32,535 nucleotides of DNA from the NCBI GenBank assembly GCA_025774645.1, contig JALGVN010000001.1, positions 1 through 32,535 of the forward strand, given 5' to 3'. The translations under genes were made by a program, and so were the position numbers. This document shows, one piece after another, positions 1,555-25,135 of this stretch (positions within the stretch are counted from its first letter, which is position 1; every line of letters starts with the position of its first letter). The notes under the pieces were generated by a model that was not told the origin of the DNA, ran no database searches, and saw nothing but the letters and a program-made list of their open reading frames with translations. The DNA comes from a bacterium. Lineage in GTDB: Bacteria; Joyebacterota; Joyebacteria; Joyebacterales; Joyebacteraceae.

Positions 1555-2199
1555 TCAGCTCTCCCCGATGAACACGAAGAGCTGCGGAAGGCGCACGAGC
1601 GCGGCCTCCGAGAAGTCCTTGAGAACCTCCATCGCGCCGTCGAAGTCGCCGTCCTCCACGACGGTCGACGTCCTGACGAACGCTCCGTAGGTCACGTTCG
1701 ACACGATCCCCGACGCCGCCATCCGCGACATGAACTTGTCGCGGTCGGCCGTCGCCAGGTCGCCCGCCGCGTACCACCAGTAGACCGCGAGACGGCGGAC
1801 GCCCTCCCGATCCACGAGCACCCAGTTCGCGTCGAAGCTCCCGTCTTCACGCCAGAGCGGCACGAGCCCCGAGTCGACGTCCATCCACCCCTGAGACCGG
1901 TAGCACACCAGCGGTTCGTGCGCGCCGTACCGGTCGTTCTGGTGGAAGATGATGACGAACCAGATCCAGTCGCCGACGTCGTTCGTGTACCGCCGCGCCA
2001 GCGTGTCGGTCGCCTCGAGCTCCTCGTAGACGACGTCGGAGAACGAGAGGTCGACGCTGCGCCAGCCGCCGAGCTCCGACGGGAACGCGCCGAGCGTGCC
2101 TGCCTCGAGCTCCATCCTCTCCGGCGGGTTGAAGTGCACGTAGAGAGCCCCCGCCCCAAGGAGCGCGACCACGACGATCGTCCCGAGTGCGGTCCTCAA
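1555..2199 (-). CDS. EpsI-family (DUF3485-like) exosortase-associated protein
   Basis: 214 aa, N-terminal TM, then ...GGWRSVDLSF... and the hallmark HEPLVCYRSQGW (H-x-P-x-x-C...GW). ATGA-coupled directly downstream of the exosortase. Confidence 0.82.
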   Translation of the reverse strand: MRTALGTIVVVALLGAGALYVHFNPPERMELEAGTLGAFPSELGGWRSVDLSFSDVVYEELEATDTLARRYTNDVGDWIWFVIIFHQNDRYGAHEPLVCYRSQGWMDVDSGLVPLWREDGSFDANWVLVDREGVRRLAVYWWYAAGDLATADRDKFMSRMAASGIVSNVTYGAFVRTSTVVEDGDFDGAMEVLKDFSEAALVRLPQLFVFIGES

Positions 2200-3134
2200 G
2201 CGCCCCTCCCCTCTGTGGCGGTCTCTTCCTCCTCGTGCGAGTTACACCGGAGGAGCCTCCTGAGCACCACCAGCCCGGCGAACGCGAACATGAACAGCAG
2301 GAAGCCCGAGAAGTCGTGGAAGAACCCGAGAGCCGCGTCGATGCCCCAGACGTGCGCGACGAGGCAGAGCGCCGTGATTCTGAGCAGGTTCCCGGCGATC
2401 GCGAGCGGCACGCTGGCCGCGACGATGGCGAGCCGCTTCCACACCGCGCCCTCCGTCAGGTACGCGAAGAGCGTTCCCAGCGCCAGGAGCGCGATGAGAG
2501 AGCGAAGCCCGCTGCACGGGTCGGCGATCCGGAGCGACCCCGCCGGGACGTGTATCGTCATTCCCGAGCGGACGAGCGGCACGCCGAGTTTCGCGGCGAC
2601 GGCGCTTCCGGTTCGCGCCGCGAACACCTTGAGGTTGAAGCTCAGCACGTTCATGAGGAACGGCGGCCACGGAAGCATGAACACGAGAAACGCGAGCGGG
2701 AACCAGACCACCTTCGTCGCACGTCCCCCGAAGAAGAAGAGCGACAGGCCGAAGAGCATGAGGACGAACGAGTAGCCCTGCGTCATGAAGACGCCGGCCC
2801 TGATCGACACCACGTTCCCCGCGAGCGCAAGCGCGATGAGAACGATGCCCCACGCCGTCCCCGACCCCACGGCCTCCGCGAACCTCTTCCGCTCGCGCCA
2901 CAGAAGGAAGAGGACGATCGGAGGGATGAGGAATCCGTGCGAGTAGTTCGGGGAGGACATCCAGGTCCGCCAGAGCGTCGGGAAGATCGGGTAGTAGACG
3001 ATCGCGACGAGCACGGCCGCCACCGCGAAGCGCGCGAGCTGGCGCGCGGCGAGCGTCCCCCTGGGGACCGCGTTCCCGTCCCCGGACGTCTTCCGGATCT
3101 CCGACCCGTCGTGTCTGTGGGTCCCCTTCGTCAA
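2196..3134 (-). CDS. Exosortase (transmembrane cysteine transpeptidase-like)
   Basis: Multi-TM protein with MSSPNYSHGFLIPPIVLFLLWRERKRF, DPCSGLRSLIALLALGTLFAYL (Cys), GNLLRI (Arg) and GFFHDFSGFLLFMFAF (His). Likely TTG start at 3134 overlapping the upstream TGA, preceded by GGAGGAG. The 372-aa ORF in the track has an over-long N-terminus overlapping the upstream gene. Confidence 0.9.
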   Translation of the reverse strand: MTKGTHRHDGSEIRKTSGDGNAVPRGTLAARQLARFAVAAVLVAIVYYPIFPTLWRTWMSSPNYSHGFLIPPIVLFLLWRERKRFAEAVGSGTAWGIVLIALALAGNVVSIRAGVFMTQGYSFVLMLFGLSLFFFGGRATKVVWFPLAFLVFMLPWPPFLMNVLSFNLKVFAARTGSAVAAKLGVPLVRSGMTIHVPAGSLRIADPCSGLRSLIALLALGTLFAYLTEGAVWKRLAIVAASVPLAIAGNLLRITALCLVAHVWGIDAALGFFHDFSGFLLFMFAFAGLVVLRRLLRCNSHEEEETATEGRGA

Positions 3135-4987
3135 CGCTGCTCCTCCGTGCTGCGGCGCGGACCGCGCTGCTCCCCTCGGGACCTTCTGAGAGCCCCGAAC
3201 GTCCCCAGGAGGATCCTGAGGTCCAGGAGGAGCGAGCAGTTCTCGACGTAGGATCCGTCGAGCCTGATCTTCTCCTCCAGCTCGACCTCGTCCCTCCCGT
3301 TGATCTGTGCCCATCCGGTGAGTCCGGGCCGGACAAGATCGACTCCGAGCCGGCGCCTGAGCTCGATCAGCTCGTGCTGGTTGTAGAGGGCCGGCCGCGG
3401 GCCGACCACGCTCATCTCACCCCGGAGCACGTTCAGGAAGTTCGGGTACTCGTCGATGCTCGTCCTTCTGAGAAGCCACCCGAACTTCGTCACGCAGCCG
3501 ACCTTCATCGGGCTGTCGTTCATCAGATCGGTCGCGAGATCCGGCGTCTCGCGGTGCATCGTCCGGAGCTTGAAGATCGTGAACTCCTGCGAGTAGACAC
3601 CGATCCGCCTCTGCGTGAAGTGGGCGTGACCGGGTGAATCGAGTCTGACGGCGAGCGCCAGGAGCGCGTGGAACGGCGCTCCCACGATCAGGACAGCGAG
3701 CGCCGTGAGGACGTCGAGCGTGTACTTGATTCCGAGGTAGTAGTGGAACTTGAAGTGGCTGCCGCAGAGCGCGCTCTCCGAAGCGAGGATCTCCTCGATG
3801 AGCTCCTCGAGCTTCCCCGCGAGAGCGGTCCTCGAGTACTCGTCCTCGACGAAGACGCGGCCGCTCCTCCCGAACGTGTGGCGGAGCTCGGCGTCGCCCA
3901 GCAGCGTCTTCACGGCATCCGCGAGCCCCTTCCCGTCTCCAGGCTCCGTCACGATGCCGCTCCCGGCGCGCTCGACGATCTCCCGCGCGTCGCCCTCGAC
4001 CGCCGCGACGATCGGCTTCCCGCACGCCATGTAGTCGAAGATCTTCACCGGGATCGTGCCGGCCGAGAACTCTCCGCCCCTCGTCGTGGCGAGGCAGAGA
4101 GCGGACCGGTGCACGAGCTCGCTGAGTTCCTCCGGCTGCCTGCTCGAGATGAACTCGACGTTCTTGAGTCCGCGCCGGTCGGCCTCGCGCACGAGGTCCT
4201 GCTTGGCCACACCGTCCCCGACCAGCACGAACTTCGCGTCGCTCTCGTCGCGGAGGATCTCGGCGGCGTCGAGGATCACGTCCATCCCGTGAACCAGGCC
4301 GTGGGTCCCCGAGTAGATGACCGTCCGGCCGTCTCCGCCGTTGCCGGCGGGGCCGCCTCCCGCGGGCGTGAACATCTCCGTGTCCGCGCCGTTGGTGATG
4401 AGCGATATCCTGTGCCGCGGGATGCCGTGCTCGAGCATGAGCCGCTCCATCCCGGGCGTGACCGCGATGAGCCTCGCGGCGCGCCGGTAGAGGAACCGCT
4501 CGAGTCTCTCCGCGGCGCGGATGGCCCGCGGGTTCCTGAGCTCGCCCAGCGCGACCGCGGCGTGCGGCCAGTAGTCCCTGAGGTCGAGCACGAAGGGAAC
4601 ACCCCGTACGAGTCCGAGGAACCACGCCGTGAGCCCGAGGAAGAGCGGCGGCGAGCTCACCAGGATCATGTCGCACTTCCTGGCGGCGCAGCCGCCGATC
4701 GCGGCGGTGAACATGAACGAGAGCTGGTTCGCTATGCGGGTGAAGAACGTCTTCCTCGGCGTCGCGTAGAGGTAGCACCGCACGATGCGGACGCCGTCGG
4801 ACTCCTCGCGGCCGCCGAGCTTCCTCCGGTAGCGGGGCTGCTTCACTCCGCTGGGGTGGTTGGGCATACCCGTCACGACCGTCACGGCGTGGCCCTGCCT
4901 CGCGAGCTTCGTCGCGAAGTGATAGGCCCGAAGCGGCGCCGCGCCGGTCTCCGGCGGGTAGTATTGTGTCAGGAAGAGGATCCTCAT
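3131..4987 (-). CDS. Fusion: N-terminal GT4 glycosyltransferase (WbuB-like) plus C-terminal monotopic phosphoglycosyltransferase (polyprenyl-phosphate sugar-1-P transferase)
   Basis: MRILFLTQYYPPETGAAPLRAYHFATKLARQGHAVTVVTGMPNHPSG (GT4) continues in frame into FHYYLGIKYTLDVLTALAVLIVGAPFHALLALAVRLDSPG...FTIFKLRTM...SIDEYPNFLNVLRGEMSVVGPRPAL...RPGLTGWAQINGRDE (bacterial sugar transferase). ATG at 4987 forms ATGA with the upstream stop; the ORF start at 5074 is an N-terminal over-extension. Confidence 0.88.
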   Translation of the reverse strand: MRILFLTQYYPPETGAAPLRAYHFATKLARQGHAVTVVTGMPNHPSGVKQPRYRRKLGGREESDGVRIVRCYLYATPRKTFFTRIANQLSFMFTAAIGGCAARKCDMILVSSPPLFLGLTAWFLGLVRGVPFVLDLRDYWPHAAVALGELRNPRAIRAAERLERFLYRRAARLIAVTPGMERLMLEHGIPRHRISLITNGADTEMFTPAGGGPAGNGGDGRTVIYSGTHGLVHGMDVILDAAEILRDESDAKFVLVGDGVAKQDLVREADRRGLKNVEFISSRQPEELSELVHRSALCLATTRGGEFSAGTIPVKIFDYMACGKPIVAAVEGDAREIVERAGSGIVTEPGDGKGLADAVKTLLGDAELRHTFGRSGRVFVEDEYSRTALAGKLEELIEEILASESALCGSHFKFHYYLGIKYTLDVLTALAVLIVGAPFHALLALAVRLDSPGHAHFTQRRIGVYSQEFTIFKLRTMHRETPDLATDLMNDSPMKVGCVTKFGWLLRRTSIDEYPNFLNVLRGEMSVVGPRPALYNQHELIELRRRLGVDLVRPGLTGWAQINGRDEVELEEKIRLDGSYVENCSLLLDLRILLGTFGALRRSRGEQRGPRRSTEEQR

Positions 4988-7509: not shown

Positions 7510-9842
7510 GCCGTATCGAACTCCCTCGCGCTCAGCGCGTCGACCCACCCGACGAGCCCCGGCACGCGCTCATCGAGCATCTCGAGGTAGAAACCGATCG
7601 TGTCGTCCACCATGTGTTCCGTCGTGTACCGGGCGAGGACGCGCTCCCTGCCCGCCCTCCCCATTCGGCGCCGCAGTTCCTCGTCGCCGAGGAGGTCGAG
7701 CACACGGCGCGCGATACCCTCGGCGTCGCCGACCGGAAGCAGGAACCCGGTCTCGCCCTCTGCAATCAGCTCGGGGTTCCCCCCGACGGAGGTCGCAACG
7801 ACGGGTCTCCCGGCGGCCATCGACTCCAGGATCACGTTCGAGCAACCCTCCTTGATCGAGGTGAGCACGAACACGTCGGTGCTCGCGAGGACCGCGCCGA
7901 CCTTGTCGGTCGAGCCCGCGAACGTCACGGCGTCCCCGAGCCCGAGGTCCTTCGCGTGCTCCGAGAGCTCCGCCCTGAGCGGGCCGTCGCCGACGACGAG
8001 GAACCGCACCTCGGGCCTCTCGCTCGCGATCCTGGCGGCGGCCGCGAGGAACGTCCTGTGGTCCTTCTTCGGAGTCAGGCTCGCGATCACGGTGACCGTG
8101 GGACCTTCCCCTGCGCCGCGCCCCGGGAACGACTCTCCGGCCGGGACGTCCGTCACCCACGGGGCCTCCGCGCCTCCGGGCGTCCCGGTGGCGCGGCCGA
8201 GGACTCTCTCGACCGATATCCCGTTGTAGACCACGCGGATCCTCCGCGGATCGACCCAGTGCATCTCCGCGACGTAGTCCTTGACCGCGCCCGCGTTCGC
8301 GATCACCTGGTCCGTGATGCTGGAAAGGAGCCTCTCGATCGCGTTCCCCCGGAACTTCGTGTGAACGTCGACGTTCCGCATCGACGTGATGACGATCGGA
8401 ACGCGCAGGAGGCGTCCGACGACGAGGCCCCGCCAGTTTGCGGACGACAGGAACGCGTGCAGGATCACGGGGCGCTCCGCGCGCACCAGGCGTGCGAGCT
8501 TGCGGGACGCGCCGGAGAAGTTGCCGACCGGCTTCGCGTGCACGACCAGACGGACGCCGGACTCCTCGATCTCCCGGCCCAGCGGCCCGGGCCGGCCGAG
8601 GCAGCAGACGACCGGCTCGAAGCGGTCCTTCGGGAGTCGCGTGGCGAGCTCCAGGAGCTGACGCTCGGCCCCGCCGCGGTCGAGCTGCCCGATCACGTAG
8701 AGGACCTTGATCTTCCCGGACGGTGCGCGGTGCGCGTGACCCGCGAGCGCGAGGTCGTACAGCGCCTCCGTCTGCCTGACCATGTGCTTCGCGGTGAATG
8801 CCCTCTCGTAGGTACGGCGGGCCATGGCCGCCAGTCGCGAGCGCTGCCCGGCGTCCCTCGCGAGAAGAGCGATCTTCTCCGCGAGCGCTTCGTGGTCCCG
8901 CGGCGGCACGACGTACCCGTTCACGCCGTTCCTGATCACTTCCGGGACGCCCCCGACGGCCGTCGAGACGCACGGGACCCCCGCCGCCATCGCCTCGAGC
9001 ACCGTGATCGGCAGCCCCTCCCAAGCCGACGAGAGGACGAAGACATCCGCTCCTCTGAGAAGCCTGGGCACGTCGTCGCGCGGCCCGAGAAACGCCACGC
9101 GGTCGCCGACGCCGAGCTCGGCCGCGTGATCCGCCAGGTGCTTGAGAATGGGACCTCCGCCGGCAACGGCGAAGTACACCGGCGGCACCTGGTCCGAGAC
9201 GGCCGCGGCCGCGCGGATGAGGTTCTCGTGGTCCTTCTGCGGGGTGAGGTTGCCGACGGTCAGACAGAGGACGGCGTCTTCGGGCACGCCGAGCTCGCGG
9301 CGCACCTCTCGACGGTCCCCCGCGACCGGCCGGAGCGTGTCGTCGATGCCGTTCCGAATGGTCACGAGACGGGCCGGGGAGAGTCGTCCTTCCGCGAGTC
9401 GGGACCGGGCGACGGCGTCCGACACCGCGATCTGAGCGTTCTCGCGCATGCCGGCGACCCTGCTCAGCGCGAGCCGGAGCGGGAAGCGCCTTGTGGCGAC
9501 GTTGTGCTCGGTGCGCAGGACGGCCGTGGCCCCGCCGAGGATGGCGGCGGGGATCCCGACGGTCATCGCGGTGAAGTTGTGGTCGTGGACGACGTCGACG
9601 CCGCGGCGTCTGATGAGACGCGCGAGTTTGAACACGGCGCGGAAGTCGAGACGGGACCTCCGTCCCAGGGCGTGGACGGGAACGCCGCGTTCGTCGAGGA
9701 TGCCGGCCAGGGGACCCGCGTCCCCGACGCAGCACACCTCGGGCTCGTAGCGCGAGCGGTCGTGGGAGGTCGCGTACTCGACCACCACGCGCTCGGCCCC
9801 ACCGAGCCCCAACGAGCCAACGACGTGGAAGACCTTCTTCAT
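7506..9842 (-). CDS. Tandem GT4-GT4 glycosyltransferase fusion
   Basis: Two full GT4 repeats in one frame: MKKVFHVVGSLGLGGAERVVVEYATSHDRSRYEPEVCCVGDAGPL...EGLPITVLEAMAAGVPCVSTAVGGVPEVIRNGVNGYVV, then IKVLYVIGQLDRGGAERQLLELATRLPKDRFEPVVCCLGRPGPL...EGCSNVILESMAAGRPVVATSVGGNPELIAEGETGFLL. Confidence 0.88.
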   Translation of the reverse strand: MKKVFHVVGSLGLGGAERVVVEYATSHDRSRYEPEVCCVGDAGPLAGILDERGVPVHALGRRSRLDFRAVFKLARLIRRRGVDVVHDHNFTAMTVGIPAAILGGATAVLRTEHNVATRRFPLRLALSRVAGMRENAQIAVSDAVARSRLAEGRLSPARLVTIRNGIDDTLRPVAGDRREVRRELGVPEDAVLCLTVGNLTPQKDHENLIRAAAAVSDQVPPVYFAVAGGGPILKHLADHAAELGVGDRVAFLGPRDDVPRLLRGADVFVLSSAWEGLPITVLEAMAAGVPCVSTAVGGVPEVIRNGVNGYVVPPRDHEALAEKIALLARDAGQRSRLAAMARRTYERAFTAKHMVRQTEALYDLALAGHAHRAPSGKIKVLYVIGQLDRGGAERQLLELATRLPKDRFEPVVCCLGRPGPLGREIEESGVRLVVHAKPVGNFSGASRKLARLVRAERPVILHAFLSSANWRGLVVGRLLRVPIVITSMRNVDVHTKFRGNAIERLLSSITDQVIANAGAVKDYVAEMHWVDPRRIRVVYNGISVERVLGRATGTPGGAEAPWVTDVPAGESFPGRGAGEGPTVTVIASLTPKKDHRTFLAAAARIASERPEVRFLVVGDGPLRAELSEHAKDLGLGDAVTFAGSTDKVGAVLASTDVFVLTSIKEGCSNVILESMAAGRPVVATSVGGNPELIAEGETGFLLPVGDAEGIARRVLDLLGDEELRRRMGRAGRERVLARYTTEHMVDDTIGFYLEMLDERVPGLVGWVDALSAREFDTA

Positions 9843-12594: not shown

Positions 12595-14619
12595 CTACCC
12601 GCCGGACACCCAGCAGGCGTCCTCGCCCGGCTGGCCGCTCTTCGTGAACAGGACCGTCTGCCCGGCCACGTTCGCACCGATGAAGTCACCCGTGTCGATG
12701 AACGTCACGTTCGGCATCGACGTGACGCTCGACGAGGTCGCGTAGAGGACGTGCAGGAATATGTGCTCGTTCGCGGCCGTCGCCGGTGACACTTCGACGC
12801 GCCACGCTCCGTCCTCGAGTCCGCCTCCTCCGGAAGGCGGGTAATTGGTGCCGTTCACCTCGAACTTCCGACCGCTGCCGCCGATCGTCGTGATCTGGTG
12901 CTGCGTCGGGAGCAGCGTCTTCACGAACAGCTTCGAGCTCCCGTGCGTCACGGAGAACGTGTCGCCCGAGACCTGCGGCTGGTTGATCGAGTGGAGGAGC
13001 CACTTCTTCGTGAACGACGGAGACGTCGCGCTGACGCGGTCGAGGATGACGAAGAAGTCGGGCTTGAGCCACACGAACTCCCTGGTGAAGTTCGAGACCT
13101 TGCTCGAGGAGTACGCCTTCGTCGCGTCGCCCTTGACGTAGGTGAACGTCTCGGTGTCCTTGAAGGGCGTGACGATCCTCCCGCGGTCGAACTGCGGGTC
13201 GGACATGTCTCCGCACACGTCGGGGTGTCCGTAGTTCGAGGCCACGAACTGCCCGCCGTCGTTCACGTACGGTGACCACGTCGACTCGTTCGGGTCGTAG
13301 ACCGTGATCGTGTTGTGGGCGACCGTGCGGATGAAGTAGTTCCGCCAGTGAGAGCTGCCCCACGTGTCGTAGTCGCCCGAGTCGATCGCCAGGAGGTCGT
13401 TCCCCCTCGCAATCAGGAAGTGACCCTGGTGGGCGTGTGTGTGGTAGACGGGGACCGCCTCGCAGCGGAAGACGGCGTAGACGTCCGTGCTGCTCTCAGA
13501 GAGGTCCCAGCCGGACCTCATGTACGCCATGCCGACGTCGTTGAAGAGCGCGGCGTTGCTCTCGCCGTAGACGGTGGCCGGGTGGACGGGCGTGATCGAA
13601 GGGTCTCGCCAGATGATCTTCTTCCAGCGGTCGAACGAGTTGATGTACCCGGACCCCTTCTCAATGAGCTCGTCGGACATCCACTGGGCAACGCCGTCAT
13701 TGTAGATGTCGGCGAGGTTGTAGAGCGCCAGCCGCGTGGACGGCCCACCACCACCGTGCGAGTGGGAGTCGCCCTGCCTCGAACCGATCGCCGTCCCGTT
13801 TCCCTTCACCGCGCCCGTCTCGTAGATGAGATAGCGCGCCATGTTCTGGTAGTTCGAGGACCAGGAGAACGGGTCGTCGGTCGTCGCGACGTCGTAGGCC
13901 GCCATGCCCATCCGGTTGCCGGTGCAGAGGATCGAGAGGTTGTACTCGCCCTCGAAGTAGCCTCCGTCGCTCGCGATCTCGTCGAGGCAGCAGAGGATGT
14001 GCGAGGAGCCGAACTGGTTGGAGGTGTACGTGTCGAGGCACGCGGTCGCGACCTGGTCGTTGATCCCTTCGCCGTAGAGCGCGATGCCCGGGTACACGAG
14101 GAGTGCGATCCTCCCGAGCTTGTGGTGGTAGTTGTCGGTGATGTGCCACTGCGTTCCGATGCCGTCACCGCTCTCCCACCAGTCGGCGCCCTGCGCGAGC
14201 GCGTTTCCGTACGTCTGCCGCTCCGTCGGAGTGAGCGCGTCGTAGCACCAGTCGAAGAAGATGCTCCCGCCCGATACCCAGCTGGTCGACTCAGTCTGAT
14301 TGTGACTGATGACGTAGTTGGAGATCGTCTTCGCGCGGTTGAGATAGCGGGTGTCCTGACTGACGAGGTAGACGAAGCTGTACGACGGAAGCGCCCAGCC
14401 GAGATTCACCGGGAGCGAGTCGTTGATGTGGCTGTCGCACCAGGTCTTGATCTTGTTGTAGTCCGAGGCGTATGGACCCAGTGCCCTCGCGCGGATGGCG
14501 GAGACATCGCTCGCCCTGAAGAAGAGCCGCGGGTGTCCCTGAATGACCTGGTACCCCTCCGCCGGGACCACCATGGCCGCGACGACGAAGAAGAGCACTG
14601 CAGCGATTGTGAGCCTCAT
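12595..14619 (-). CDS. Secreted heparinase II/III-like polysaccharide lyase
   Basis: Signal peptide MRLTIAAVLFFVVAAMVVPAEG, alpha-barrel region (GHPRLFFRASDVSAIRARA...), then HTHAHQGHFLIARGNDLLAIDSGDYDTWGSSHWRNYFIRTVAHNTITVYDP, typical of heparinase II/III-like C-terminal domains. Confidence 0.8.
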   Translation of the reverse strand: MRLTIAAVLFFVVAAMVVPAEGYQVIQGHPRLFFRASDVSAIRARALGPYASDYNKIKTWCDSHINDSLPVNLGWALPSYSFVYLVSQDTRYLNRAKTISNYVISHNQTESTSWVSGGSIFFDWCYDALTPTERQTYGNALAQGADWWESGDGIGTQWHITDNYHHKLGRIALLVYPGIALYGEGINDQVATACLDTYTSNQFGSSHILCCLDEIASDGGYFEGEYNLSILCTGNRMGMAAYDVATTDDPFSWSSNYQNMARYLIYETGAVKGNGTAIGSRQGDSHSHGGGGPSTRLALYNLADIYNDGVAQWMSDELIEKGSGYINSFDRWKKIIWRDPSITPVHPATVYGESNAALFNDVGMAYMRSGWDLSESSTDVYAVFRCEAVPVYHTHAHQGHFLIARGNDLLAIDSGDYDTWGSSHWRNYFIRTVAHNTITVYDPNESTWSPYVNDGGQFVASNYGHPDVCGDMSDPQFDRGRIVTPFKDTETFTYVKGDATKAYSSSKVSNFTREFVWLKPDFFVILDRVSATSPSFTKKWLLHSINQPQVSGDTFSVTHGSSKLFVKTLLPTQHQITTIGGSGRKFEVNGTNYPPSGGGGLEDGAWRVEVSPATAANEHIFLHVLYATSSSVTSMPNVTFIDTGDFIGANVAGQTVLFTKSGQPGEDACWVSGG

Positions 14620-22665: not shown

Positions 22666-23697
22666 CTATGGAGTGGTCGTGGTCGTGGTCGTCGCTTGCT
22701 GAATCGCCGCGTTCCTGAACCTGCGGTCGTCGATCTCCCGCTCGATGCTGAGGTAGAGGAGGTAGGCGGTGAGCACCTGGGTCGTGGCCGTCAGAAGCGC
22801 GCCGGCCGCGTTCCAGAACTGCCCGGAGAACTCGTCCTTGACCGACCCGACGACCACGCGGTCTCCCGCCCTGAGGAAGAACGGCTTCGGCGTTCCGCGC
22901 TTGAGGATACTGTTGAGGTTCACCTTGGCGACCGCCTGCCCGTCCCCCGCGTCCATCACCACAGAGACCTCGTTCAGTTGTGCGTCGATCGTCGTGCCTC
23001 CGGCGACCGCGATGAGCTGGAAGAGGTCGATCCTGTCCGACGTCGGGTACGCTCCGGGCGTGTTCACCTCGCCGAAGATGTAGACCATGCCGGCGCCCGC
23101 GAGGCCACCGCCGCCGAGGATCGACGGGACTTCGATCGTGTCGCCCGGCATGAGCGCGGGGAGCGGTTGAGCGCTCTCGCCTCTCATGTACGCGCCGAGG
23201 TCGACGCTGATGAGTTCGGGTCCGCCGATCGAGGGTCTCAGGATCGAGACCTGCGAGAGGTCTGCGCTCGGCAGCGCGCCACCCGCGGAGCTGAGGAGCT
23301 GCAGGATGTCGGGGATGGCCTCGAAGCTGTAGCGGCCGGGCGCGGTGACCTGTCCCGTCAGAAAGACCGCGCGGCTGTTGAACTGCTCGACCGACACCGT
23401 GACCTGGGTGGTCTCCCTCGTGTAGTCCCTGAACCGCTGGACGAGCTCCCTCGAGAGTTCCGACGGAGTGAGTCCGGCCGCCATGAGTTCACCGATCGGC
23501 GGGAGCGTGATCGTCCCGTTCGATTTGACCGTGACGTCCCGGTCCAGATCGGCGTGACGCCAGACCGCGACCCTGAGCACGTCGCCCGGGCCGATGGTGT
23601 ACTCTATTCCCTGCTGCTGCGCCGGCGCGTCGATCGCAACAAGCGGCAGGATCATGGTAACGAGCAGAATCGATGACACGATCTTCCTGCTGGACAT
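22666..23697 (-). CDS. Polysaccharide export protein (Wza-like, SLBB domains)
   Basis: Signal peptide MSSRKIVSSILLVTMILPLVAIDAPAQQ, then YTIGPGDVLRVAVWRHADLDRDVTVKSNGTITLPPIGEL, SLBB-like VFLTGQVTAPGRYSF and VYIFGEVNTPGAYP. ATG 23697 preceded by GGGGGGA; the ORF start at 23844 is over-extended. Confidence 0.92.
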   Translation of the reverse strand: MSSRKIVSSILLVTMILPLVAIDAPAQQQGIEYTIGPGDVLRVAVWRHADLDRDVTVKSNGTITLPPIGELMAAGLTPSELSRELVQRFRDYTRETTQVTVSVEQFNSRAVFLTGQVTAPGRYSFEAIPDILQLLSSAGGALPSADLSQVSILRPSIGGPELISVDLGAYMRGESAQPLPALMPGDTIEVPSILGGGGLAGAGMVYIFGEVNTPGAYPTSDRIDLFQLIAVAGGTTIDAQLNEVSVVMDAGDGQAVAKVNLNSILKRGTPKPFFLRAGDRVVVGSVKDEFSGQFWNAAGALLTATTQVLTAYLLYLSIEREIDDRRFRNAAIQQATTTTTTTP

Positions 23698-23712
23698 CGC
23701 TTCGTCCCCCCG

Positions 23713-23723
23713 AGTCAGAACTG
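23713..23723. repeat. Direct repeat family B, copy 1
   Basis: AGTCAGAACTG, perfect 11-bp match to 23885-23895. Confidence 0.5.
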
Positions 23724-23847
23724 CGTGGAAGTCGCCGGTCTCACCGGCGGCGTCCCGTCTGTTCCACGTTCTCGCTGAATTCCCAGAGATGTGCGGCACG
23801 CGACGAGCGGTCCGGGACACGAGTCCCGCAGTCGCCCGGCGCACACA

Positions 23848-23876
23848 TGGTTACCGGGTACGGACACAGCGGTCAA
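23848..23876 (-). promoter_or_regulatory. Weak sigma70-like promoter candidate
   Basis: Minus strand TTGACC-N17-TAACCA: good -35, poor -10. Would give a leader of roughly 140 nt before ATG 23697. Confidence 0.25.
23852..23871. repeat. Direct repeat family A, copy 1 (20 bp)
   Basis: TACCGGGTACGGACACAGCG; 17/20 identical to 23994-24013, all differences transitions. Confidence 0.6.
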
Positions 23877-23881
23877 CAGGA

Positions 23882-23897
23882 AACAGTCAGAACTGTT
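23882..23897. promoter_or_regulatory. Perfect palindrome AACAGT-CAGA-ACTGTT (operator candidate) containing family B copy 2
   Basis: 6-4-6 perfect inverted repeat immediately upstream of the TTGACC -35-like hexamer (minus-strand sense). Includes AGTCAGAACTG at 23885-23895. Confidence 0.5.
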
Positions 23898-23953
23898 GCC
23901 TTTTCCGACACTTCCACCCCAGCGTCTCGCGAGTAGCATCTTTAACACCTTAC

Positions 23954-23971
23954 CCTGCAATGCGTTACAGG
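23954..23971. promoter_or_regulatory. Imperfect 18-bp palindrome CCTGCAATG/CGTTACAGG (operator candidate)
   Basis: 7/9 positions symmetric; the two asymmetric positions do not favour pairing on either transcript strand, so a DNA operator is more likely than an RNA stem. Confidence 0.45.
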
Positions 23972-23993
23972 TATCCACACCGGGAACCCGGCG

Positions 23994-24013
23994 TGCCGGG
24001 TGCGAACACAGCG
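23994..24013. repeat. Direct repeat family A, copy 2 (20 bp)
   Basis: TGCCGGGTGCGAACACAGCG; 17/20 identical to 23852-23871. Confidence 0.6.
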
Positions 24014-24052
24014 ACCCCCCGGAAAGCGCACATTGATGCACTTCCGGAGGGT
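24014..24052 (-). terminator. Long RNA hairpin downstream of ddl (U-less terminator, processing site or leader structure)
   Basis: Minus-strand RNA ACCCUCCGGAAGUGCA-UCAAUG-UGCGCUUUCCGGGGGGU folds as 11 bp + single bulged U + 5 bp with a 6-nt loop. Starts about 30 nt after the ddl stop. No U-tract follows. Confidence 0.5.
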
Positions 24053-24082
24053 CCCTTTGCATCACCTGTGCCAGAGAGAGCC

Positions 24083-25135
24083 CTATTTCAGGGCCATTCT
24101 GACGATTCTGTCCACTAATTCGTCAAAGCCGATCCCGGCCGCGGCGGCCGCCATCGGCACCAGACTCACGCCGGTCATGCCGGGAACCGTGTTGACCTCG
24201 AGGCAGAAGACCCCGTTGTTCGGAGCGACGCGGTAGTCGACCCGCGCGTATCCGCGGCAGCCGAGCGCGCGGAACGCGTGGAGCGCCGTCGTCTGGAGAA
24301 CGTCGGCGAGCCGCTTCGGAACCTCCGCCGGACAGGTGTAGTCGCTCATGCCCTTCGTGTACTTGCTCTCGTAGTCGTAGAGACCACCTTTCGGCGCGAT
24401 CTCCACTACGGGGAGAGGCTCGCCCCCGAGAACCGCGACCGTGAGCTCGCGGCCGGGGACGTATGTCTCGACCAGCACGTGGCGCGAGTACTCGGCCGCC
24501 AGGCTGATGGCGCCGGCAAGTTCGTCTTCCCTCTCGACGACGGTGAGTCCGACCGTCGAGCCCTGGTCGTTCGGCTTCACGACGAGCGGGTAGCCGCCGA
24601 CGCGCTCCGCGGCGTCGAGCGAGTCGGAGACCGCGAGGTCGTCCGGGAGCCACGGCGAGCCGCCGCGTTCGTCGGCCGCGACGTCGCCCTCGAGCGAGAC
24701 CACGGCCCACGCGGGCGTCGGCACGCGCGACTCCCTGAAGACGATCTTCGACGCGCGCTTGTCCATCGCCAGCGCGCAGGCGAGGACGCCCGAGCCCGTG
24801 TAGGCTCTCCCGGAGAGTTCGAGAAGCCCCTGAACCGTCCCGTCCTCGCCCGACCCCCCGTGGAGCGCGACGAAGACGACGTCGGCTCCCTGGACGGCCT
24901 CGCCGGCGACCGCGCGGAGTGCCGCACCGGCCTCCTCGAGGATGGGTGGCGGCGCCACCCCGATCTCCGCCGCGACCGCCGCCTCTCTCGCCCCCACAGC
25001 GGAGTCGCCGACGGCCGGATCGATCAGGAGAACGTCGTGTCCCCCGTCCGCGAGCGCGAGCCCGACGGCCCGCCCCGTGACGAGGGAGATCTCGCGCTCG
25101 GCAGATGTGCCTCCGTAGAGAACCGCGATCCTCAC
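24083..25135 (-). CDS. ddl: D-alanine--D-alanine ligase
   Basis: VRIAVLYGGTSAEREISLVTGRAV, VFVALHGGSGEDGTVQGLLEL, YTGSGVLACALAMDK, PLVVKPNDQGSTVGLTVV, YARVDYRV...FCLEVNTVPGMTGVSLVP. GTG start overlaps the gltX stop (GTGA). Confidence 0.95.
   Translation of the reverse strand: MRIAVLYGGTSAEREISLVTGRAVGLALADGGHDVLLIDPAVGDSAVGAREAAVAAEIGVAPPPILEEAGAALRAVAGEAVQGADVVFVALHGGSGEDGTVQGLLELSGRAYTGSGVLACALAMDKRASKIVFRESRVPTPAWAVVSLEGDVAADERGGSPWLPDDLAVSDSLDAAERVGGYPLVVKPNDQGSTVGLTVVEREDELAGAISLAAEYSRHVLVETYVPGRELTVAVLGGEPLPVVEIAPKGGLYDYESKYTKGMSDYTCPAEVPKRLADVLQTTALHAFRALGCRGYARVDYRVAPNNGVFCLEVNTVPGMTGVSLVPMAAAAAGIGFDELVDRIVRMALK

Follow-up and report, generated by a model that had tools for sequence, protein, structure and literature searches.

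The question raised by this locus is how transcription of a long exopolysaccharide (EPS) operon is controlled, and from which elements in the DNA ahead of it. The window analysed here is a stretch of 32,535 nucleotides that makes up an entire contig (G000:C358) of a metagenome-assembled genome of an uncultured bacterium, 81% complete. That ddl and the Wza-like gene are separated by a true gap was confirmed; it is 385 nt long (23698-24082), with the ddl stop at 24083 and the Wza-like ATG at 23697. A first-pass annotation of the sequence had taken it for a repeat- and palindrome-dense control region of the EPS locus, probably with more than one regulator and an RNA leader element. The minus-strand operon contains genes for export, chain-length/kinase, glycosyltransferase, Wzy-like, deacetylase, exosortase and EpsI proteins, a content that marks it as an exosortase-type EPS locus. 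The best NCBIfam matches of the Wza-like protein (TIGR03027/TIGR03028) were both under their cut-offs. Alignment to a relative (G001) indicates that contig C221 continues the window nearly without a gap (window base 2 corresponds to L083 7554 and C221 base 1 to L083 7545). On that contig (G000:C221:1-5175, L087) the exosortase genes are followed by a TPR gene, a PrsR-like regulator, a DUF5683/PEGA protein and an fn3 protein. Two long open frames of the locus, at 583-1467 and 7570-9735 of the minus strand, have no Pfam or NCBIfam match, and a heparinase II/III-like protein is encoded at 12595-14619 on the same strand. Coordinates of the other features can be seen in Table 1.

Table 1 Features of the EPS locus and of the gap upstream of its Wza-like gene. 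Positions are those of the window.
Feature	Position	Strand	Basis or remark
EpsI-like DUF3485 protein	1555..2199	-	PF11984, E 1.5e-27
Exosortase (EpsH/Xrt family)	2196..3314	-	TIGR02602 197 bits (cut-off 105.55); PF09721 227 bits
Wza-like polysaccharide export protein (Poly_export, SLBB), first operon gene	22666..23697	-	Profile matches
P2, predicted sigma70-type promoter, TTGAC-N17/18-TAnnnT	23848..23876	-	Comparison of 16 regions
P2 -10 hexamer, TAACCA	23848..23853	-	TAGCTT, TAGCGT and similar in relatives
P2 -35 hexamer, TTGACC	23871..23876	-	GTTGAC invariant in 16/16 regions
Perfect 6-4-6 palindrome of the first-pass annotation, AACAGT-TCTG-ACTGTT	23882..23897	-	Overlaps 3' end of box B
Box B, 17-bp PEP-CTERM / PrsR-type box, TGTCGGAAAAGGCAACA	23894..23910	-	Centred at about -61 of P2
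Box A remnant, degenerate, TGCCGGGTGCGAACACA	23994..24010	+	Placed by alignment; below detection in this genome
Hairpin just past ddl stop	24010..24056	-	z = -6.9 in the window; only strong hairpin
P1, predicted sigma54-type -24/-12 promoter, TGGCACAGGTGATGCA (GG-N10-GC)	24058..24073	-	Conserved TGGCAC-N6-TGCA
ddl, D-alanine--D-alanine ligase, upstream neighbour	24083..25042	-	PF07478/PF01820

The repeats, palindromes and folding of the gap exceed chance. It holds a 30-nt direct-repeat pair of 77% identity (23854-23883 and 23996-24025), an exact 11-nt pair (23713-23723 and 23885-23895) and a 15-nt pair at 80%. The best 30-mer self-match (23/30) was equalled by 0 of 300 dinucleotide shuffles, six perfect 6-x-6 palindromes were counted versus 1.1 expected from dinucleotide shuffles (P = 0.003), and the RNA folding energy relative to such shuffles gave z = -3.7. 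The reported richness in repeats and palindromes is thus confirmed. Their use as regulator sites did not survive comparison: most are unconserved outside the nearest relatives, and neither the long direct repeat nor the 6-4-6 palindrome, both lineage-specific, extends beyond the closest ones. We therefore rejected them as operators, the palindrome doing no more than overlapping box B. Judged by alignment, the conserved elements of the gap are ones that the first-pass annotation had left unnamed. It had recognised no JUMPstart/ops element, in agreement with our finding that the ops core GGCGGTAG is missing from the gap even with one mismatch allowed; control of the JUMPstart/ops (RfaH) type was rejected on this ground.

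In order to identify conserved elements, we compared 16 wza-upstream regions from seven genera (the present genome belonging to genus g1) of the family 'Candidatus Effluviviaceae' (Eisenbacteria). The genomes are metagenome-assembled, and the analysis drew on about 20 from the phylum. Two conserved promoters of different sigma classes were predicted, P1 of the sigma54 type and P2 of the sigma70 type. Both were kept in 16/16 regions, so that the comparison of wza upstream regions, which had been proposed as a check on the control region, found it conserved in relatives. The TGGCAC and TGCA of P1 are invariant in all 16 and form the best-conserved element there. P1 lies about 10 nt after ddl with a predicted start near 24047. 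The rpoN gene was located in 20/20 genomes of the family, in G026 as two pieces, and exact TGGCAC-N6-TGCA sites number 9 in the present genome. No upstream activator site was recognised for P1, the DNA ahead of it being part of the ddl coding region in most relatives. In one relative (G003, L015) the upstream neighbour is unlike ddl, yet the conserved blocks remain, which indicates that they belong to the EPS locus and not to ddl. Another conserved sigma54 site, TGGCACAAGTTGTGCA, was seen elsewhere (G000:C181:1667-1682, L021, and G001:C28:23250-23265, L090); in the present genome it precedes a short gene that opens with MVKTPLHPSDESGSVLTAA, and the arrangement in G001 is similar.

For P2, the TA of the -10 hexamer stands at N17 (N18 in G012) in 16/16 regions and the final T is present in 13/16, being missing in genus g1. 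A generic sigma70 promoter scan of the window found no site; it misses P2 because its -10 hexamer is weak here. The distance from P1 to P2 is 197-202 nt in 15/16 regions (197 bp in the window) and 210 nt in G007, and this near-fixed spacing is kept despite change in most of the intervening bases among relatives. The distance from P2, whose predicted start is near 23841, to the start codon varies between 85 and 182 nt.

Between the two promoters, downstream of P1 and 16-18 nt before the TTGAC of P2, stands box B. Its distance from P1 is 163 nt in g1, g3 and g5, though the intervening sequence diverges. A 17-nt motif ending in TTTACA, placed about 63 nt ahead of the sigma54 sites of PEP-CTERM genes in Proteobacteria, was described and proposed as the site of the response regulator PrsR; in 2006 it was reported only from that group (Haft 2006, PMC1569441). 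Box B is letter-identical to a 17-mer on a Desulfovibrio vulgaris plasmid, where two PEP-CTERM genes lie together on the minus strand and the 17-mer precedes the upstream one. From gene order we infer that this pair is DVUA0032-DVUA0031, an operon listed as a target of PrsR (DVUA0057), for which binding at plasmid PEP-CTERM operons was found experimentally (PMC3333781, PMC4641369).

In order to have an independent measure, we built a matrix from six boxes outside Eisenbacteria with the identical D. vulgaris copy left out. The external boxes were recovered from Vibrio alfacsensis, a Burkholderiales genome and the D. vulgaris plasmid, the plasmid boxes being missed with a strict sigma54 consensus and recovered after the sigma54 match was relaxed. 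This blind matrix found box B in the window (P = 0.005) and ranked it top in 11 of 16 regions, with P of 0.025 or less in 10 of those. The box is weak in G012 (P 0.10). Genus g4 has as its best match an inverted one that overlaps box B (P 0.005-0.035), box B itself having P 0.07-0.105, and no box was found in the control region of G007. A loose box pattern occurs once in the present genome, and a box followed by TTGAC once, at wza. Across the family, loose matches are otherwise scattered single sites, of which only one, on another contig of G003, is followed by TTGAC at the spacing seen at wza. The order of box then sigma54 site was matched a single time in 20 family genomes, away from the start of any EPS locus; classical control of that kind by the local PrsR was rejected because this order was not found at EPS loci of the family. 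Genera g3 and g5 have in addition an inverted box A, which is separated by 62-63 nt from the beginning of the sigma54 site and precedes box B by 100-101 bp. G003 carries a perfect, box-like inverted repeat TGTCGCACTACACGACA 34 nt from its sigma54 site (P = 0.05); its position differs from that of box A in the other genera.

The candidate protein for box B is the product of a gene at the opposite end of the locus (contig C221, L087:1028-2500). This response regulator contains sigma54-activator and Fis domains, and its best NCBIfam match is PrsR (TIGR02915, 406 bits; next AtoC, 312). The curated cut-off of TIGR02915, 502.6 bits, is not reached by this homologue or in any family genome. In a phylogenetic tree it forms a clade with PrsR (support 99/99), six other enhancer-binding proteins of the same genome and G007a falling outside. 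Over the DNA-binding domain it shares 49-61% identity with D. vulgaris PrsR, versus 24-39% for those six proteins. Within the family the DNA-binding domain is the best-conserved part (68%, versus 46% for AAA+ and 42% for the receiver), and the orthologues retain the PrsR-like DNA-binding helix. The GAFTGA motif, which is the sigma54 contact loop, and the acidic pair (DE) of Walker B are the parts used by such proteins to drive sigma54. Both are absent in 14/14 orthologues, the seven genera being non-independent draws for these changes; D. vulgaris PrsR carries GAFTGA. This loss suggests that AAA+ function is dead in the homologues of the family and that they are unlikely to remodel sigma54 polymerase.

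PrsK, the kinase of the PrsK/PrsR system, is encoded directly upstream of the regulator in five relatives (G003, G004, G006, G010 and G025; 311-324 bits, cut-off 300). No PrsK above cut-off was found in the present genome (81% complete) or in 14 other family genomes. The receiver residues are intact in the PrsK-bearing genera g2, g3 and g5 and changed in g1, g4 and g7, where PrsK was not found. In the regulator tree the two sets make up its two branches (94/90 and 99/98), which means that loss of PrsK and decay of the receiver may be one event and not several. The regulator of the present genome may thus act without the PrsK kinase. In G007 (97% complete) no regulator orthologue was found; regulator and box are both absent and P1 is kept. 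In G008 the regulator is present and the control region runs off the contig.

We propose that the gap is a two-promoter control region of an exosortase-type EPS operon, in which box B would be bound by the PrsR homologue of the same locus. This protein would act at P2 from a class-I position, the box being centred near -61, and no longer via sigma54; such action fits both the position of the box and the loss of GAFTGA. Since P1 is strictly conserved and the local regulator is without the sigma54 motifs, P1 would presumably be driven by another enhancer-binding protein of the genome. We regard as somewhat favoured the view that a PrsR homologue unable to drive sigma54 works at P2 and another enhancer-binding protein drives P1. 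The suggestion of a control region with more than one input is supported, in the form of two conserved promoters and a regulator box. Against this proposal are the weak -10 hexamer of P2, the shortfall of the regulator from the TIGR02915 cut-off and the low ranking of box B in g4 and its weakness in G012, and the near-fixed spacing of P1 and P2 might instead reflect action of the box on P1 from a downstream position. A fuller history, to which we give a little less than an even chance, is that an ancestral PrsR acting with sigma54 lost its motor before diversification of the family, its box now serving P2 and P1 being run by another activator, with kinase loss and receiver decay following in one branch and a DNA-binding regulator free of the kinase as the outcome.

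The first alternative takes the boxes for downstream enhancers from which the PrsR homologue, by itself or in mixture with a second enhancer-binding protein, would either activate P1 or block it, the TTGAC being secondary. With box A at about +45 and box B at about +145 of P1, the near-fixed 163 nt from P1 to the box in g1, g3 and g5 would be explained, as would the exact 100-101 bp between the two inverted boxes of g3 and g5 and the sigma54 site being the best-conserved element. It is harder to reconcile with a regulator lacking GAFTGA and the Walker-B acidic residues in every orthologue, with a box at a fixed 16-18 nt before TTGAC, and with G007, which keeps P1 with neither box nor regulator; we consider it unlikely. 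The second alternative is that an intact regulator with a similar DNA-binding domain binds the wza box, the protein of the EPS locus being no more than a remnant in decay. There are about 14-20 related enhancer-binding proteins per genome, and the AAA+ and receiver domains decay in several genera. However, the DNA-binding domain is just what is best conserved in the local protein, and the six other enhancer-binding proteins compared are less PrsR-like in that domain, which makes this alternative improbable.

The third alternative brings in the RNA leader of the first-pass annotation, namely a riboswitch or attenuator formed by the hairpins. The folding of the gap and the hairpin just past ddl would speak for it, and leaders of very roughly 140 nt (from P2) or 350 nt (from P1) are expected. 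However, an Rfam 15 covariance-model search of the window gave no match even at loose E-values, no leader sequence is conserved, and the stretch from P2 to the ATG is of variable length. In relatives the hairpin has z = -2.1 to -5.2 (G004, G005, G007, G012) or about -1 or weaker (G002, G003, G006); its stem sequence is unconserved, and strong folding is seen mainly where the ddl stop lies directly beside it. The 5' arm sets in ahead of the predicted P1 start, which falls inside the arm. These properties look more like the 3' end of ddl, and the hairpin is probably that rather than a structure of the P1 leader. The RNA leader therefore found no support, and we hold such control to be very doubtful. 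Finally, an ordinary constitutive intergenic promoter with a ddl terminator, the box and sigma54 match being coincidental, is scarcely credible: short motifs are common, with about nine exact sigma54-like sites in this genome, but this reading is already contradicted by the comparative data, namely conservation in 16 regions at near-fixed spacing, blind recovery of the box by a matrix from outside the phylum, the D. vulgaris 17-mer of identical sequence and the joint absence of box and regulator in G007.

The proposed arrangement, with P2 regulated through the box and P1 driven by another protein, may be compared to known systems. It resembles the PrsK/PrsR PEP-CTERM system (PMC1569441; PMC3333781, PMC4641369) in having the same 17-bp box form (TGTCR...ACA), letter-identical in one copy, a homologous response regulator, adjoining PrsK in five relatives and an exosortase-EPS locus. 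It differs in that the box is downstream of the sigma54 site and next to a sigma70-type promoter, whereas it is 32-92 nt upstream of the sigma54 site there, in the loss of the GAFTGA and Walker-B residues, in the phylum, which is Eisenbacteria, and in that the box was found here only at the EPS operon. This is apparently PrsR regulation with its sigma class switched. NtrC-family regulators without GAFTGA act with sigma70, as with the NtrC proteins of Rhodobacter and Caulobacter and VspR of V. cholerae (PMC10274813). They share the response regulator, AAA+ and Fis-type DNA-binding domains and the loss of the sigma54 loop; unlike them, the present regulator descends from PrsR and not NtrC and has also lost the Walker-B acids, and a conserved sigma54 promoter is still in its control region. 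In P. aeruginosa, FleQ controls pel at its sigma70-type promoter from two boxes (PMC10723142); the present regulator would likewise be an enhancer-binding protein that serves EPS genes through a sigma70 promoter, and g3 and g5 have two boxes as well. FleQ differs in retaining sigma54 function and in its c-di-GMP/FleN input.

If the comparison with PrsK/PrsR holds, regulation of this kind would extend beyond the phylum of its description and be tied to the EPS operon itself. The family offers a graded natural series, from kinase with intact receiver, through no kinase with decayed receiver, to neither box nor regulator, which bears on how a sigma54 activator converts to a sigma70-type regulator. 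How enhancer-binding proteins without GAFTGA originate and come to use new promoters is a general question, which can be tested here on a single box, the two promoters and about 14 orthologues. Should the switch of sigma class be true, its stages could be read across living genera.

A separate RNA-like element of about 150 nt was observed near the end of the EPS locus, outside the window. Its copies (L083:2031-2182(-), L085:8340-8491(+), L086:907-1058(-), L190:3586-3737(-) and seven more) follow a sigma54 site by about 60 nt in most cases and lie ahead of a gene whose product is large and secreted (fn3/FlgD_ig in G001). It occurs as a single copy in 16/20 genomes, including 13/13 of good quality, and was not found in the incomplete present genome. 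No Rfam match was obtained for it. Many of its loop bases are invariant (ACCCCCAC, AACCCCCTATGCACC) and 12 of 40 predicted pairs show two-sided changes; the element is possibly a new structured RNA family.
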